Virus record (IMG/VR): IMGVR_UViG_3300038566_000030 | Span: 1-34,477 of that record | DNA: 34,477 nucleotides | Direction: 5' to 3' (one strand) | Source: a virus | In this document: in pieces, positions 24,701 through 32,171 of the stretch | How positions within the stretch are numbered: the first letter of the stretch is position 1 | Layout of the letters: each line of letters starts with the position of its first letter | Made by a program: the position numbers and the translations under genes | Notes under the pieces: generated by a model | Told to the model about the DNA's origin: nothing | The model's database searches: none | The model's input: only the letters and a program-made list of their open reading frames with translations

Positions 24701-25881
24701 AGCTTGGTCCTCTTAAATACACTGTCGATAAAGTTCTTTTTGTTTACTGATACAGTCTTATACACTTGCTCGCTTAATCCTTTCTTAACTAGGAGAAAGT
24801 GAACAGTTATAGGAGTGTCTCGTTTCTTATTTGCTTGACGTGCACGACGTTGAGCATGCCGGGCAGTTGAGAAGTCCTGGCTATAGATTACAAGGTCAGA
24901 GAACTTATGTAAGTCTACGCCTTCAGCATAGCTAGTAGCCTGAAGTACCGTAGCTTTCTTAAACACTGACTCTAGCTTAGCCTTCTCAGCTATGTATTGG
25001 TACATAATAACCAGACCCTCATGGTCACCCCAGTGTTCCAGGATATAGTCGATCTTCTCACGGTTAGCTAAGATAATGCGGTCCTCTTCAATCTTAGCAA
25101 CTCCTCCTTCTAGCATATGGAGACTTGCACGCAGCTTAGCTGTGGTATCACAAACTAGCATACCTGCCTTAAGCTCAACTATATTATGTTCCATTAGCTC
25201 ATTGTATACAGCTTTAGTGGGCTCAGATAGTTCTATATAATGTAGCTTATCCGTAGGCTCATAGTCAAAGCCTAACTCTTGTCTAGTCTTAGTTATGAAC
25301 AAGTGTTCCACACATCCTAGGATTAGTGGGGTATCACAACGGTCGTACTGTGGTATCTGTATACCATTGATCTCACGAGTATAGGGTTTACCGAATTGCT
25401 TGAACCAGTTGTAGAATGAGGTGTACTTACGAAAGGGTGACCAGGTTGATAGGGCAAGCTGGTGGTACAGTAGCTGAGGGCCCTGGGCGTAAGGGGTAGC
25501 CGAGAGGTATATCAGAGGTTTCTTAGCACAGACTACCCTCATCTCTTTCCATATCTTACCAGGCTTAGGGTATGAGCTAATATAGTTATGTGCTTCATCA
25601 ACTATAACTAAGTCATGTGGCGGTTGTTTATAAGCCTGGTGGTAATTAGTTACCGTGTACTTCTTGTTATGTGGGAAAGCCTTGAGGGTGTCGTTCCATC
25701 CATCCAGGGCTTTCTTTTTAGTCACTACAAGCACTGTTTGTACTTGGGTCGCTTCAGCAGTCAGAATAGCAGTCAGGGTCTTACCTGTTCTCTCCTCTGC
25801 TGCTAGGTATACTATGGCGTGTTGCCGAAGAATGCTTAGAGCACTCTCCGACATAGCTACCTGGTAGTCATAAGGGGTCAT
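24697..25881 (-). CDS. SF2 helicase, SNF2/DEAD-like
   Basis: The 394-residue protein contains the Walker A variant ERTGKT (residues 30-35), the motif II box VDEAH (94-98), and LIYLSATP (motif III). In the second half it has VIMYQYIAEK, then QATSYAEGVDLHKFSDLVIY (motif V) and QRRARQANKK (motif VI). This arrangement is that of a small superfamily 2 helicase of the SNF2 type, used by many phages for replication fork or recombination work. Its TAA overlaps nothing unusual, and its start overlaps the nuclease stop as TAATG. Whether it unwinds duplex DNA or only moves along it is not shown. Confidence 0.85.
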   Translation of the reverse strand: MTPYDYQVAMSESALSILRQHAIVYLAAEERTGKTLTAILTAEATQVQTVLVVTKKKALDGWNDTLKAFPHNKKYTVTNYHQAYKQPPHDLVIVDEAHNYISSYPKPGKIWKEMRVVCAKKPLIYLSATPYAQGPQLLYHQLALSTWSPFRKYTSFYNWFKQFGKPYTREINGIQIPQYDRCDTPLILGCVEHLFITKTRQELGFDYEPTDKLHYIELSEPTKAVYNELMEHNIVELKAGMLVCDTTAKLRASLHMLEGGVAKIEEDRIILANREKIDYILEHWGDHEGLVIMYQYIAEKAKLESVFKKATVLQATSYAEGVDLHKFSDLVIYSQDFSTARHAQRRARQANKKRDTPITVHFLLVKKGLSEQVYKTVSVNKKNFIDSVFKRTKL

Positions 25882-26708
25882 TAAAGCTTTACAACCTTCT
25901 TAGCCTCAGGGTTATGCGACTTAGTAGCTGGACAGCTGCCGTACAGTGAGCAGTACTTATTGCTACATAGGTAGTACTTTGGATTAGGTCTTAAGATAGT
26001 CTCGATCGGTGCAACGTCCTTAGCTATAAGATCAAGAGTGTCTAAGACAGTGTTAATCAGTGCCTTAGCCTGAGGTACGTTAGACTCCATAGGTAATATC
26101 ATACCTTCAGGCCCAGACTTCTTAAGTACTACACCTTGGATTAGATTGGTCTTGACATCTACACCATTAGCTTGAGCTAACAGCTTATAGATAGACTGCT
26201 GTGTTGTATAGTTAGCTGGTGAAGGCTTACGCTTAGAAGTCTTAAGGTCGGCTATGGTGTTTTCAGTGATGTAATCAACAGTACCACCAATCTCTGATAC
26301 CATACAATGGTCAATGTCAATCTTATAGAACTCTTCAACAGCTACAGGAATCTTAGCAAACGGTACAATGTCGTCAACAAAAGCTTCAGTCCCTGCTAGT
26401 ATCTCAGAGATTGCCGTACCTTCAGTCTCATCCTTGTCATAGCTAACACCATCATGAGTCTGTTCTTTCCAGACAGCCATAGACGCGTCAGTTAGCTTAC
26501 TAAGGTTTACATCTTTACTACCTGTGATAATAGCCTCAGACCAAAGAGTCTCAGCTGCTGCATGGATAGACGTACCGATAGCGGCTCTAGAGTTCGGAAT
26601 AGTATTGATACCCTCAAGGAATACTTTACCCCATTGAAAGGCGCATTGAAAGAACCCATCAACTGAGGAAGGGCGGATACGAATGTCGGTATTATTGATT
26701 TTAATCAT
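25881..26708 (-). CDS. Cas4/RecB-like PD-(D/E)xK exonuclease with Fe-S cysteines
   Basis: The ATG at 26708 has AGAGG upstream and gives 275 residues. The nuclease motifs are His49 (IGTSIHA), Asp145 (GGTVDY), Asp154-x-Lys156 (IADLKTSK) and the QxxxY box (Gln170, Tyr174). Four cysteines are placed as in Cas4 and AddB: one near the N-terminus (Cys22) and three near the C-terminus (Cys248, Cys253, Cys259), so an iron-sulfur cluster is likely. Such phage enzymes process DNA ends for recombination. It is the first gene after an internal promoter at 26773-26801, so it starts a separate leftward transcript for helicase, ligase and the rest. Confidence 0.85.
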   Translation of the reverse strand: MIKINNTDIRIRPSSVDGFFQCAFQWGKVFLEGINTIPNSRAAIGTSIHAAAETLWSEAIITGSKDVNLSKLTDASMAVWKEQTHDGVSYDKDETEGTAISEILAGTEAFVDDIVPFAKIPVAVEEFYKIDIDHCMVSEIGGTVDYITENTIADLKTSKRKPSPANYTTQQSIYKLLAQANGVDVKTNLIQGVVLKKSGPEGMILPMESNVPQAKALINTVLDTLDLIAKDVAPIETILRPNPKYYLCSNKYCSLYGSCPATKSHNPEAKKVVKL

Positions 26709-26772
26709 GCTTGTTTGCCTCTGTTTGCTTGTGAATACGGAGCTCCGTATCACGTTTTAAATTTGAATATAG

Positions 26773-26801
26773 ATTATATCACGTCTGATTTTAAAATGGA
26801 A
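26773..26801 (-). promoter_or_regulatory. Leftward promoter for the nuclease-helicase-ligase genes
   Basis: On the minus strand TTCCATTTT (26801-26793), exactly 10 bases, then GTGATATAAT (26782-26773) are found. The same two blocks with the same 10-base gap occur before the SSB gene. TGATATAAT is a perfect extended -10 element. The first block overlaps the stop of the dCMP deaminase gene. Confidence 0.75.
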
Positions 26802-27216
26802 CACAGTGGACGACAGGAGATTCTATGAGCAGTTCTACGGCTCTCATCTGGTCGTCTTTCCATGAACTATCTTCAGCTAAACCCGGCGTGACCACTCGCC
26901 CTATACCTGCTTGTATAATAGCTAATGCACACTTAGTGCAAGGAGACTTAGTTGTGTACATTGTCCACCCTCTAACGCTTACCGGTGTGTTAAGTATAGC
27001 ATTTAGCTCAGCGTGTATAGTCAGTGAGTTCTTTAGTTCTTTATTCTTCAAGTCTCTGGCATCATCGTCTAGACCTTGAGGAAGTCCATTGTAACCTACC
27101 GAGAACTGCCTACGGTCAGGAGAGACCAGGACCGCGCCAACGCGACAGTCCGGGTCCTTACTCCAGCAGGCTATTTCTCTAGCTAGGTTAAAAAACCTCG
27201 CATCCCACTTGTGCAT
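26791..27216 (-). CDS. dCMP deaminase
   Basis: The 141-residue protein has the zinc-binding and catalytic motifs of cytidine/deoxycytidylate deaminases: HAE (His68, Glu70) and PCTKC (Cys93, Cys96). It begins with a helix like other members (FFNLAREIACWSKDPDCRVG). The reaction turns dCMP into dUMP, the substrate for dTMP synthesis. The start has GAGG nine bases upstream and overlaps the preceding gene by 29 bp. It lies three genes after the thymidylate synthase-family gene, so the two act in one nucleotide pathway, as in T4. The 3' end lies under the promoter of the nuclease operon. Confidence 0.92.
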   Translation of the reverse strand: MHKWDARFFNLAREIACWSKDPDCRVGAVLVSPDRRQFSVGYNGLPQGLDDDARDLKNKELKNSLTIHAELNAILNTPVSVRGWTMYTTKSPCTKCALAIIQAGIGRVVTPGLAEDSSWKDDQMRAVELLIESPVVHCVPF

Positions 27217-27475
27217 TTATCTCATCCTCTACAAGCTTAGCATAACCACAGATGTCATGCCAGTTATCGTTATACTCAGGGTCACCGTTAAGTATTCTAG
27301 ATATTTTATGCTGTATCATATCCAAGGCTTCCTGCTTGTCAGCAGTCAGGTTACACCAGCCTGGTGCCTTACGCATAGTATTCTTAAGGTTCTGACTGGT
27401 CACACCGTTGGCTGCGAGTGTACCATACTTAGCCCCACGGGCCGCTAGTGTCTTATTAATGTTTGACTCTTGCAT
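27188..27475 (-). CDS. DUF6378-like phage protein
   Basis: The ATG at 27475, with AGGAG seven bases upstream, gives 95 residues. The pattern NKTLAARGAKYGTLAANG, then KQEALDMIQHKISRILNGDP and NDNWHDICGYAKL, is widespread in phage proteins of this family. The invariant His, Lys, Asp and Tyr residues suggest binding of a small ligand or metal, but the function is unknown. It lies between the MazG-like and dCMP deaminase genes, which suggests a link to nucleotide metabolism. Confidence 0.65.
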   Translation of the reverse strand: MQESNINKTLAARGAKYGTLAANGVTSQNLKNTMRKAPGWCNLTADKQEALDMIQHKISRILNGDPEYNDNWHDICGYAKLVEDEINAQVGCEVF

Positions 27476-28016
27476 CGAGTATCTCCTGTAATCTAGGTTC
27501 TGGGTCTTTGAAGTATGGGCCTTTGTCACCATCGTTAGCTTTGACATTGGACGCCGTTTTCTTTACCGACTTAGAGTCGTTGCTATCACAGACAACTAAT
27601 AACGCACGTTCCTGCTGCTCCTGGCTTAGTCCCATATAGCTCATCTGAGTTAAGCAAGAAGTAATAACAAAGTTCATAGACTCAGCAACATTTAAGTAGT
27701 CATTGCGTAAACCTAGGATGTACGAAGCTATATAGTAAGCAGGAGGGAATACCTCAAGGTCTAGGTGTCTAGACACTACATTGACCGCAACTTCTTGGGC
27801 ATGTTGTAACTCGTCTACCTCAACGTCTGCTTTCCATATAGCCCCAAGTGCTACATAGACAAGGTCACATAAAGCATCAAGCTGGTCAACCTCAGTCTTA
27901 GCAGTCCAGTACTCATTTAGCTCTTCAGCTAAGAGCGTGCAAGTCAACAGGGTATTGTGCTCTTGTTCGTATCGTGCAGCATTCCAGTTTTTAACTCTCT
28001 CAAATACTTTAATCAT
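27456..28016 (-). CDS. MazG-like nucleotide pyrophosphohydrolase
   Basis: The 186-residue protein has the core of the all-alpha NTP pyrophosphohydrolase fold: LLAEELNEYWTAK (Glu31, Glu32, Glu35) followed by DQLDALCDLVYVALGA (Asp47, Asp51). These acidic residues hold the magnesium ions that cut a nucleoside triphosphate to the monophosphate. The C-terminus, with DSNDSKSVKKTA and YFKDPEPRLQEIL, is shared with related phage proteins. It sits directly after the thymidylate synthase-family gene with a 4-bp ATGA overlap. A dCTP pyrophosphatase role, feeding dCMP to its neighbours, would fit but is inferred. Confidence 0.78.
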   Translation of the reverse strand: MIKVFERVKNWNAARYEQEHNTLLTCTLLAEELNEYWTAKTEVDQLDALCDLVYVALGAIWKADVEVDELQHAQEVAVNVVSRHLDLEVFPPAYYIASYILGLRNDYLNVAESMNFVITSCLTQMSYMGLSQEQQERALLVVCDSNDSKSVKKTASNVKANDGDKGPYFKDPEPRLQEILDARVKH

Positions 28017-28816
28017 GCGTGTAGCTCCAATGGAAGTTTACCTAAGTCTCTAGCACTTGATAGCTCAATATGCGTAGGCTCATAGGATAAGAAGTTAGTA
28101 CCAGGTGGTACGGTTAATGTGTAGTTATAAGGAGGCAGTACAGGGCTATTCTCTACTCTGTCTAAGTAAGCCTCAGCTGCTTGGATATGAGAGTGGTAAA
28201 CATGAGTATCACCTAAGTCCATCTTAATACGACCAGGTAATAACCCAAACTCATTACCTAACATTATAAGCCAAGTAGCAGCTAAGACTATATCTGACGG
28301 TAGTCCAACCATGACATCAACAGACCGCTGACTCCATAACATATCTAGGTACTTACCCTCACGGACATAGAACTGATAGCTATAGTGACAGCACGGCAAG
28401 TCCAGTTTATTGAGTCTCTCTGGTCGCCAAGCATTGATCAACATCCGACGGTCTGTTGGGTTGTTAGCTAAGCAGTCTTTAAGCCTAGCAATCTGTCCAC
28501 CAGCAAACCAGGCATTACCATAGTCTACTTCAATGGACCCGTTAGGCTTTGCCCAGGACTTCCAGTAGTTACAACCCCAACGCTCAAAGTCCGCAACACT
28601 CTTAGGCTCTCTGATCATCGCAGCGAACTCACCAAACACTCCTGCAGGGTACATCTTACGACCCTGGATAAGCGGGAAAGTACCGTCACCATTCATCTCA
28701 ACAACTAAGGACTCGCCAAAGATTGCAACTGTGTCTGCATTCCTGGTGCTACGTCGTTCACCTTCTTTAAGCACCTTAGCTACTAGTGCAGCGTAGTCTC
28801 GTTCAAACTTTTGCAT
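28013..28816 (-). CDS. Thymidylate synthase family; dCMP-hydroxymethylase-like
   Basis: The 267-residue enzyme has the catalytic LPCCHY (Cys143), RRMLINAWRPERL, the phosphate-binding QRSVD (163-167) and the GDTHVYHSH block (His205, Tyr207). In thymidylate synthases the segment after QRSxD reads GLPFNI, and its Asn selects dUMP. Here it reads GLPSDI, with Asp175 at that place. T4 dCMP hydroxymethylase has Asp at the aligned place. This suggests that the enzyme acts on dCMP and makes hydroxymethyl-dCMP, although plain thymidylate synthesis is not excluded. The first 13 bp overlap the polymerase gene's 3' end. It lies with a MazG-like gene and a dCMP deaminase gene. Confidence 0.85.
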   Translation of the reverse strand: MQKFERDYAALVAKVLKEGERRSTRNADTVAIFGESLVVEMNGDGTFPLIQGRKMYPAGVFGEFAAMIREPKSVADFERWGCNYWKSWAKPNGSIEVDYGNAWFAGGQIARLKDCLANNPTDRRMLINAWRPERLNKLDLPCCHYSYQFYVREGKYLDMLWSQRSVDVMVGLPSDIVLAATWLIMLGNEFGLLPGRIKMDLGDTHVYHSHIQAAEAYLDRVENSPVLPPYNYTLTVPPGTNFLSYEPTHIELSSARDLGKLPLELHA

Positions 28817-30500
28817 GTGCCCACATCCCGTCTAGCTCATAGTCCCAAATATTAGCAACATCTTCATCTTCGATGTCACCCCAGTTATAACCCACCATGA
28901 CATTAACAGGCATAGGCAAGTCTTTGATAGCGAATAGTCCGCTCATTTCTGCCCAGGCTGTTGCCATATCTTCAGCTAGTGCTGTAGCCACTCGCTTGTA
29001 CACTTCAGGGTCATCATCACACTCAATGATGAAGGAGTCATGGATAAAGTTACATACCTTAGCTTCTTCCATATCTCGCTTCATAAAGTAATGGAAAGCT
29101 AGCTTAGATACTTCAGCACCTGCACCTTGGTTCTCGATGTTGAGCTGATCTGTCATCATCTTAGCTTTGTACTTACGACCCATAGGAGTAGAGCCTAGTC
29201 GACCTTTACGCCATGAGCTAATACCGGACTCTTGCCAAGCATATATCTCACGCCAGGTTCTACGCCACTTCTTTCTATCCTGGTTAACCTGATGTTCAGG
29301 TAGTAGTAGCATTGCAGTCTTTATCATATAGCTAATAACCATACTAATCCCACCACCATATAGCAGTGTAAAGTTATAGGACTTTGATATTTGACGATGC
29401 TGCTTCGTGAAGTCTTTGCCGTATATTAGCTCAGCAGTATAGTTGTGTAGGTCTCCACCCTCTCTAAATATCTTGGCCATTGCAAGACAGTTAGTGATAG
29501 CACAGATTGTGCGTAACTCAAGCTGAGCATAGTCAGCGTAGACTAGTACCTTACCCTCACCAGGTTGGAATCCAAAGACTCCTTTAAGAGCACGAGGTAA
29601 TTGCTGAAGGTTCTGGTCATCAGAGGTTAGACGACCGGAGCGAGCAGACGGCTTAAACTTACCAAAGATTCGCTCTTGTCTAAACTTGTCAAGGAAGCTC
29701 TGTTGTTTCCTTAGCTTACGAACTTTACGGATGTTACCAGCTCTCTCGTTACCCTGGATTTCCATCGTAGCTAAAGCTAAGTCATCAGACTCAGTACAGT
29801 CTAACCACTTCCGTACTTGCTGCCAGGAGTTAGCATTGATAGGCATGTCGATAGCGGCTATAGCCTGCTCATTCTCAGCGTACCGAGCATTAAGTCTAGA
29901 GTGGTCTACTGGCATACCATTCCACTGTATCTTCCAACAGTTTTGGAGGGTAAACTTATCTAGCTTATAGCTAGTATCATCCAACATATGCTTGCATGCA
30001 TCGTACACAGCAGGCATGTAATAAACATCAGTTGCCGCATATAACAGTTGTTCCTGAGTTAACTCGCGTTTGCTCCAGTCAGACTTCTGGAGAGCTTTCT
30101 TATTTAAGTGCTGGCGTTCGTAAGGGTCGTAGCCCAGGACGTAGCCCATGACATCATCAAGACTGTACTTCTCTTTATCAGGGATAGCTAACCTGGATAA
30201 CAAGAAAGTATCCTCAAAGCTCTTGGGTCTGAACGAGTGAATACCAGAGTGTTCTTGCATGACAGTTACATCATAGTGGGCGTTATGATAGACCTGGGTA
30301 TAAGCATCCATCATAGCTAACATCTCAATCTCTTGAGGCCACTCAACTAACAATACATGCTCGAGGTGTTCCTGGTATAGCTGGAGCAATCGGACTTTAC
30401 CGTACAGCCCGACTGTCTCAGTATCTGCAAACAATGGTAAGGACTTGTCTAACTGCTTAGCCGCTTCAGCTAAGGTTAGAATAACGAAGGGAGTCTTCAT
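28803..30500 (-). CDS. DNA polymerase, family A
   Basis: The 565-residue enzyme replicates the phage genome. The N-terminal proofreading exonuclease shows FADTET (Asp26, Glu28), YHNAHYDVTVM and YAATDVY (Asp158). The polymerase part shows motif A YADYAQLELR (Asp323), motif B RQISKSYNFTLLYGG (Arg369, Lys373, Phe377) and motif C NFIHDSF (His487, Asp488). The residue matching E. coli Phe762 is Phe. Motif C has Ser489 where HDE is usual. There is no 5' nuclease domain, as in most phage enzymes of this size. It is preceded by an ATGA overlap with the upstream gene. Confidence 0.95.
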   Translation of the reverse strand: MKTPFVILTLAEAAKQLDKSLPLFADTETVGLYGKVRLLQLYQEHLEHVLLVEWPQEIEMLAMMDAYTQVYHNAHYDVTVMQEHSGIHSFRPKSFEDTFLLSRLAIPDKEKYSLDDVMGYVLGYDPYERQHLNKKALQKSDWSKRELTQEQLLYAATDVYYMPAVYDACKHMLDDTSYKLDKFTLQNCWKIQWNGMPVDHSRLNARYAENEQAIAAIDMPINANSWQQVRKWLDCTESDDLALATMEIQGNERAGNIRKVRKLRKQQSFLDKFRQERIFGKFKPSARSGRLTSDDQNLQQLPRALKGVFGFQPGEGKVLVYADYAQLELRTICAITNCLAMAKIFREGGDLHNYTAELIYGKDFTKQHRQISKSYNFTLLYGGGISMVISYMIKTAMLLLPEHQVNQDRKKWRRTWREIYAWQESGISSWRKGRLGSTPMGRKYKAKMMTDQLNIENQGAGAEVSKLAFHYFMKRDMEEAKVCNFIHDSFIIECDDDPEVYKRVATALAEDMATAWAEMSGLFAIKDLPMPVNVMVGYNWGDIEDEDVANIWDYELDGMWAHAKV

Positions 30501-31704: not shown

Positions 31705-31920
31705 TTATTTTTTTATTATTACTTGCAGCTGATGAAGAGGGAGTTCTAACATCACTCCATTAGCTAACATCACAACAGCCAAAGTATAGAGTTCCTCCTG
31801 ATGGTTGGCCTGGTAGCTGCTTAGCGCTACGACTTTACCTTTATACAGGGGCTTCTGCTTTTGTTCAAGGGCTTGCGCTGCGCCTATTTTGTATACATTT
31901 ACTTCTTTACCGATTAGCAT
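31705..31920 (-). CDS. Small hypothetical protein, beta-rich
   Basis: The gene encodes a 71-residue protein (MLIGKEVNVYKIGAAQALEQ and onward) with alternating hydrophobic strands, for example TLAVVMLANGVMLELPLHQL near the end. It could be a small barrel. It lies in the early operon between the zinc-finger-like gene and the SSB promoter, and overlaps the former by a few bases. I do not recognise its family. Confidence 0.55.
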   Translation of the reverse strand: MLIGKEVNVYKIGAAQALEQKQKPLYKGKVVALSSYQANHQEELYTLAVVMLANGVMLELPLHQLQVIIKK

Positions 31921-32171
31921 AGTTTCTTTCCTAATATAAAAGCTTGAGCCATCTCACCGTCCCAGGATAGGTCAGTGTTAACTACAAGCGGGTTAACTGT
32001 GTTGTGCTTGTACACTATGGGTTTACCGGAGCCCATACAGTCTTTGCACCTTGGCGATCTGCCATTGACCCCATGCTTTAGGCGTCTGAAGTCTTCCCAG
32101 GCTTTATACTCACCACATTTCTTGCATTCACGGCCCTGTTCATCGACCCTGCAAATACTAGGCTTCCCCAT
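31914..32171 (-). CDS. Zinc-finger protein resembling an HNH endonuclease N-terminus
   Basis: The 85-residue protein contains CKKCGEYKAWEDFRRLKHG and PRCKDCMGSG, two CxxC pairs as in the zinc-binding start of phage HNH endonucleases. The expected His-Asn-His catalytic part is missing: after the second CxxC the sequence goes to an unrelated tail (WDGEMAQAFILGKKLC). It may be a truncated HNH gene or a small zinc-binding protein in its own right. It overlaps the ends of both neighbours, so it is not obviously decaying. Confidence 0.6.
   Translation of the reverse strand: MGKPSICRVDEQGRECKKCGEYKAWEDFRRLKHGVNGRSPRCKDCMGSGKPIVYKHNTVNPLVVNTDLSWDGEMAQAFILGKKLC

Follow-up and report, generated by a model that had tools for sequence, protein, structure and literature searches.

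What does a phage gain from a thymidylate synthase (TS) homologue whose base-selecting residue is Asp in place of Asn, and which group does such an enzyme add to its substrate? The gene in question lies on a linear IMG/VR record of 34,477 bases, the whole of which is referred to below as the window, and a preliminary description had suggested that its product is a dCMP hydroxymethylase and that the phage may carry hydroxymethylated or further modified cytosine. We consider it probable that the gene instead encodes a dCMP 5-methylase evolved from TS and that the phage DNA carries 5-methylcytosine. The relevant features of the window are as follows.

25881..26753, minus strand: PD-(D/E)XK nuclease, immediately downstream of the cassette
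26791..27216, minus strand: dCMP deaminase (PF00383), a family found in 37/40 clade records
27188..27547, minus strand: small DUF6378-like ORF inside the cassette (library match)
27456..28016, minus strand: MazG-like pyrophosphohydrolase (PF01503), overlapping the TS gene by 4 bases; would convert dCTP to dCMP
28013..28816, minus strand: TS-fold enzyme of 267 aa, predicted dCMP 5-methylase, with selector Asp175 and nucleophile Cys143 (PF00303, alignment, AF2 model)
28292..28294, minus strand: codon of Asp175, equivalent to E. coli Asn177 and T4 Asp179; cytosine selector
28388..28393, minus strand: codons of Cys142-Cys143, the latter being the nucleophile; the CC pair is a clade mark
28397..28399, minus strand: codon of Leu140, equivalent to E. 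coli Leu143 and T4 Asp145, and thus without the acid of hydroxymethylases
28523..28525, minus strand: codon of Asp98, adjoining catalytic Tyr99; found in 98/98 clade and sister-group members and in none of the other groups tested
28803..30500, minus strand: family A DNA polymerase, immediately upstream of the cassette; source of the polymerase tree

The ORF at 28013-28816 (minus strand) is complete, starts with ATG, and encodes 267 amino acids matching PF00303 in Pfam (E=3.9e-47); it is a real, complete TS-fold enzyme. When superposed on E. coli TS complexes, its AF2 model (mean pLDDT, 95.6) matches their residues 1 to 264 over its own positions 5 to 267 (Z, 33.6; rmsd, 1.5). The alignment extends to the last residue of the E. 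coli protein, and the window enzyme has a C-terminal tail of TS length. The superfamily features are present (the PF00303 fold, the catalytic Cys, Glu58, the Arg residues, and His207/Tyr209 in E. coli numbering), and the alignment showed Cys143, Glu63, Arg123/124/164, Ser165, Asp167, His205, and Tyr207 to be retained, so that the catalytic Cys, the Arg residues, and the His/Tyr block are in place, as had been described. The active-site segment reads QRSVDVMVGLPSDI in the window enzyme and QRSCDVFLGLPFNI in E. coli ThyA.

The selector residue sets the base that is bound, Asn specifying uracil and Asp cytosine (PMC5175136; PMC6841964; PMC6400193). According to the part of PMC8670742 that cites Liu and Santi 1992 and others, the Asn-to-Asp exchange converts TS to the use of dCMP, the product being 5-methyl-dCMP, and the metagenome association study reported there found Asp177 TS homologues, PF01503, and PF00383 together on modified-cytosine contigs. 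We collected the clade of the window enzyme from 80 viral and 3 genome loci, one of the retrieval patterns containing DYGN, and aligned 89 clade sequences. The selector Asp was present in 88 of the 89 and in all nine sequences of the Kolga-like sister group, so Asp175, which occupies the place of the Asn found at E. coli position 177 in dUMP-specific TS, is neither a chance substitution nor a sequencing error; the ORF, its coordinates, and the selector Asp noted earlier are thus confirmed. Judged from the sequence, a preference for dCMP over dUMP as substrate is well supported, and the selector literature together with the near-invariance of Asp makes dCMP specificity a firm prediction. Two clade members sharing 51% identity, L290 and L064, have an Asn selector; they differ in their palindrome counts (observed/expected ratio [O/E], described below), which show avoidance in L290 (0.36 over 4.7 kb) and no strong avoidance in L064 (about 0.8).

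The selector tells which base is bound and says nothing on whether a methyl or a hydroxymethyl group is added. Hydroxymethylases carry a signature of their own, namely, Asp or Glu three residues before the catalytic Cys (position -3) and Ser or Thr two residues before the catalytic Tyr, and the T4 enzyme in addition lacks the C-terminal tail and the Trp83 of TS (PMC6400193). Position -3 was Asp in 23/23 hydroxymethylase-type sequences (16 T4-like dCMP enzymes and 7 dUMP enzymes of the SP8, YuA-like, and Kuttervirus types), Leu in the clade (89/89), the Kolga-like group (9/9), TS (4/4), and the BX1-like group (10/10), and Asn in 9/9 Bosavirus sequences. This rule, drawn from the dCMP and dUMP enzymes of these sequence groups, sets hydroxymethylases apart, and its natural methylase reference, the Bosavirus enzyme, is of the Asn and not the Leu type. 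Both TS Trp residues are retained by the clade (E. coli numbering: W80 in 89/89, W83 in 88/89); Trp88 of the window enzyme stands at E. coli position 83, where hydroxymethylase-type sequences have no Trp. Ser or Thr two residues before the catalytic Tyr is likewise absent, the window enzyme reading Val97-Asp98-Tyr99. All the features of the second half-reaction that we tested turned out to be TS-like. Given Leu at -3, both Trp residues, the TS tail, and the fit of the model, the window enzyme resembles TS throughout, the selector and a small number of clade marks excepted, and in this it is built like the dCMP methylase engineered from L. casei TS (N229D). The clade marks in the active site are Asp98, which is invariant, Cys142, and Ser/Ala174; the Asp98 count of 98/98 is biased upward by the DYGN in the retrieval pattern. 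Asp98 may help to handle the 4-amino group.

A quick tree of 57 TS-family sequences, in which the two long branches of SP8 and Pikmin are unsure, recovered the clade as a single group (SH-aLRT, 100). A branch supported at 99 joins it with the N177 TS sequences and includes neither of the hydroxymethylase types nor the Bosavirus enzymes, so that the window enzyme groups neither with T4 gp42 nor on a common branch with the Bosavirus enzyme; it may act like the latter without being of that branch. These positions indicate that the selector Asp was gained separately in the T4-like, Bosavirus, and window-type lineages. A place well inside the dUMP-specific enzymes had been named beforehand as grounds for abandoning the hydroxymethylase reading, and the tree goes halfway toward it: the clade lies next to dUMP-specific TS yet is long-stemmed and distinct. 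Of the proposal of a dCMP hydroxymethylase, the dCMP specificity therefore stands by virtue of the selector Asp, while hydroxymethylation is not supported, in view of the missing signature, the TS-like features of the second half-reaction, and the tree. As a T4-type hydroxymethylase the enzyme does not hold up in the alignment with T4 gp42 and cellular ThyA, having Leu140 and not Asp at -3 and keeping both the Trp and the tail.

The genes for the MazG-like protein and the dCMP deaminase follow the TS-like gene in one operon, which supports the earlier suggestion that they control the dCTP and dCMP pools. The named phages closest to the window are podoviruses of about 42 kb, namely, Edwardsiella phage KF-1 (Kafunavirus; 57%), Vibrio phage VPMS1, Dickeya phage Amaethon, and Pseudoalteromonas phage PH1. 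The window shares with them the gene order polymerase, TS-like enzyme, MazG-like protein, (deaminase), PD-(D/E)XK nuclease, helicase, and ligase. Full-length relatives measure 40 to 43 kb, so the window, a 34.5-kb linear fragment, is without some of the genes. Among the ORFs scanned in this fragment there was no glucosyltransferase or kinase, in agreement with the preliminary description, and none of 40 records had a second PF00303 enzyme. Only 4 of the 40 contained a phage dihydrofolate reductase (DHFR) above the cut-off, which would in most cases leave folate regeneration to the host enzyme. A small ORF at window positions 31914-32171 showed a weak match to a Lar-like restriction alleviation protein (phrog_5558, E 2.4e-5) and also to endonuclease VII families.

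We then counted all C-containing 6-mer palindromes and related the counts to a maximal-order Markov expectation. The window showed no avoidance of palindromes (O/E, 0.97); the cassette-bearing relatives VPMS1 and KF-1 gave 0.99 and 0.92, respectively, 79 pooled clade loci gave 0.88, and T4 gave 0.94, which again is no avoidance. Avoidance was strong in T7 (0.54), SP6 (0.59), N4 (0.52), and the vibriophages VP4 (0.52) and VP93 (0.51), all of which we take to be unmodified lytic podoviruses. V. parahaemolyticus is the host of VPMS1 as well as of VP93, so host identity by itself does not account for the difference. A polymerase search for cassette-less relatives yielded four polymerase-bearing contigs with enough flank (L304, L296, L297, and L321), in which the TS-family gene and the deaminase were absent from the whole record. 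All four avoided palindromes, with O/E values of 0.60, 0.43, 0.47, and 0.42, respectively, the lowest value among 61 TS-bearing loci being 0.68; against matched nonpalindromes the z values were -10, -14, -13, and -15, versus -0.7 for the window. Base composition as the source of the signal was rejected, as matched nonpalindromic 6-mers had an O/E of about 1 in all the genomes. In the polymerase tree L304 is nested beside the relatives of the window, L296 and L297 form one lineage, and L321 sits on a long branch. How far a genome avoids restriction-like sites thus appears to follow the cassette, in a comparison that comprises two or three independent contrasts only, too few for a sign test to reach significance, and cassette-less contigs that may infect other hosts. 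Absence of site avoidance points to protected DNA and not to the kind of protection. It is supported that the phage DNA carries modified cytosine, as had been proposed; hydroxymethylation, the other part of that proposal, gives way to 5-methylcytosine as the better prediction.

The slot of the cassette varies among relatives. In the cassette-less relative L304/L267 the PD-(D/E)XK nuclease comes after the polymerase with just an 84-aa ORF between them. The slot of L288 (L288:11043-14570) contains a T4-type enzyme with the segments EDFVC (Asp at -3) and GADLAWQ, accompanied by genes for a carbamoyltransferase (PF02543/PF16861), a deaminase acting on dCMP, and a MazG-like protein, and L318 (L318:7575-10041), which is placed elsewhere in the polymerase tree, among relatives with the Leu-type enzyme, likewise has a T4-type enzyme plus a carbamoyltransferase. 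Both are likely 5-carbamoyloxymethylcytosine cassettes in podoviruses. PF02543 occurred in these two only among 40 whole records, and in 0/34 of the Leu-type records searched; a tailoring enzyme thus accompanies the hydroxymethylase and none accompanies the window type, as expected if the latter leaves no hydroxyl. In L317 (10757-14312) and L314 (5469-8941) a T4-type enzyme adjoins an uncharacterized radical SAM protein of 312 to 336 aa, a pairing that is a candidate for a new cytosine hypermodification.

L308 (7634-15597) has no TS of the window fold; it encodes ThyX, QueD, and a QueE-like radical SAM protein, and its palindrome O/E of 0.97 shows no avoidance. We considered it as an exception, having neither TS nor avoidance, and set it aside because of its QueD/QueE-type genes: lack of avoidance is what a 7-deazaguanine-type modification would predict, and the locus is likely a 7-deazaguanine DNA modification cassette, in which a gene without a library match is, at a guess, transglycosylase-like. 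Two further cassette-less relatives (L282:10616-11260 and L287:6890-7447) have in the slot a kinase-like P-loop ORF for which Pfam gave no match. Outside this group, the TS homologue of Vibrio phage BX-1 (Ackermannviridae; L106:2935-3837) has Asp177 in combination with Leu at -3 and a Pro at 147, unlike its N177 relatives; it is a candidate for another dCMP methylase. An IMG/VR copy (L130) showed no palindrome avoidance in its 8.9-kb flank (O/E, 1.06). The TS homologue of Microbacterium phage Pikmin (L016:3778-4587) combines Asp177 with Asp at -3, the T4-type hydroxymethylase signature; its group comprises many Microbacterium phages, and the gene is annotated as thymidylate synthase.

The most serious competitor of the methylase is a dCMP hydroxymethylase without the known signature, in which Asp98 would replace T4 Asp145 and activate a water on the exocyclic methylene to give 5-hydroxymethyl-dCMP. 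Asp98 is found throughout the clade and its sister group (98/98) and in no other group tested, the aligned residue, Val93 in E. coli TS, corresponds to T4 Ser94 at the critical water (PMC6400193), and hydroxymethylase cassettes can take the slot of this gene. Yet the count of Asp98 is inflated by the DYGN retrieval pattern, and the elements by which TS shuts out water and permits hydride transfer (Leu140, Trp88, and the C-terminal tail) are kept nearly always, whereas hydroxymethylase-type sequences have the acid at -3 and no Trp at 83. Moreover, the carbamoyltransferase is present in 2/2 swapped records and in none of the Leu-type ones. We therefore regard this chemistry as unlikely, though not negligible, and hold the same doubtful view of its corollary, that the clade represents a second, independent dCMP hydroxymethylation in which the acid moved from -3 to Asp98 within a TS-like pocket.

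Far less probable still is that the enzyme methylates dCMP to feed thymidine synthesis, the 5-methyl-dCMP being deaminated to dTMP so that dUMP is bypassed and no modified base enters DNA. The deaminase family, present in 37/40 records and adjoining the gene, and the lack of a second PF00303 enzyme in the 40 records would fit such a route, which leaves unexplained, however, the indifference to palindromes with the cassette and their avoidance without it, the hydroxymethylase and carbamoyltransferase in the slot of relatives, and the pyrophosphohydrolase. We give equally little credence to an ordinary TS that tolerates the selector Asp and converts dUMP to dTMP: dUMP-specific TS is the closest kin in the tree and, among the matches listed, in fold, and His144 is TS-like, but the Asn-to-Asp exchange switches TS to dCMP in the work cited in that part of PMC8670742, Asp is kept in 88/89 sequences, and the clade-specific Asp98, Cys142, and Ser/Ala174 mark an altered active site. 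Against the methylase itself we count Asp98, the Asn of Bosavirus enzymes at -3, the DHFR in only 4/40 records, and L064, which has Asn177 and no strong avoidance.

From the fold, selector, missing signature, place in the tree, operon, and avoidance contrast observed here, we infer the product of the methylase, the logic of the nucleotide pools, and the degree of replacement. The MazG-like enzyme would empty the dCTP pool into dCMP, which would be bound through Asp175 and attacked at C6 by Cys143. A methylene group from 5,10-methylene-tetrahydrofolate followed by a TS-like hydride transfer would then yield 5-methyl-dCMP and dihydrofolate, and the dCMP deaminase would supply dUMP/dTMP, balancing cytosine against thymine. 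Kinases of the host, or encoded in the missing part, would phosphorylate 5-methyl-dCMP to its triphosphate for incorporation by the polymerase of the phage, so that much or all of the cytosine would be replaced by 5-methylcytosine, conferring resistance to many restriction enzymes.

Few phages are known in which 5-methylcytosine wholly replaces cytosine. The clade is a separate, widespread lineage (more than 100 contigs matched) with the same selector switch as the textbook TS mutant, and cultured small podoviruses carry its enzyme (KF-1, VPMS1, PH1, and Amaethon). Across relatives, one and the same position in the genome appears to accept various modification cassettes or to stay without any, a natural experiment on what phages gain from DNA modification. 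Many genes carry no annotation beyond thymidylate synthase, and the residue at -3 offers a rule by which the methylases among them may be separated from the hydroxymethylases.

Among known systems, T4 gp42 shares with the window enzyme the TS fold, the selector Asp, and the catalytic Cys, Glu, Arg, and His/Tyr residues; it differs in Asp145 at -3, Val85 in place of Trp, the lack of a TS tail, and the accompanying glucosyltransferases. The MetaGPA 5-carbamoyloxymethylcytosine module (PMC8670742) likewise unites PF00303, PF01503, and PF00383 on modified-cytosine contigs, while the window is without the carbamoyltransferase and has a Leu-type enzyme with His at 147. Kafunavirus KF-1 together with VPMS1, Amaethon, and PH1 agrees in the gene order around the enzyme and in a TS-family protein 50 to 57% identical, annotated in all four only as thymidylate synthase; the literature searched reported no DNA modification or restriction-digest data for them. 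Two engineered enzymes, N229D of L. casei TS and N177D of E. coli TS, which according to the studies cited in PMC8670742 make 5-methyl-dCMP from dCMP, also combine a TS framework with an Asn-to-Asp selector, to which the natural clade adds the invariant Asp98, Cys142, and Ser/Ala174. Finally, Xp12 DNA has 5-methylcytosine for cytosine, and AXL1 DNA is resistant to the majority of enzymes with G/C sites (PMC9206674). In the comparison Xp12 (MT664984) was represented by its Bosavirus relatives DLP4 and AXL1. These resemble the window type in the selector Asp (Asp177), the lack of an acid at -3, and a tail of TS length or longer, and also in context, where the TS homologue adjoins genes for a dCMP deaminase and an NTP pyrophosphohydrolase and a family A polymerase is near. 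Their enzyme differs in Asn at -3, Phe at 83, Pro at 147, Tyr at 176, and no Asp at 93, and the phages differ in being of siphovirus type, about 64 kb long, and equipped with an adjacent DHFR. Two marks of the Xp12 type are found in the window, namely, a dCMP-selecting Asp without the hydroxymethylase acid and an operon with a deaminase and an NTP pyrophosphohydrolase.
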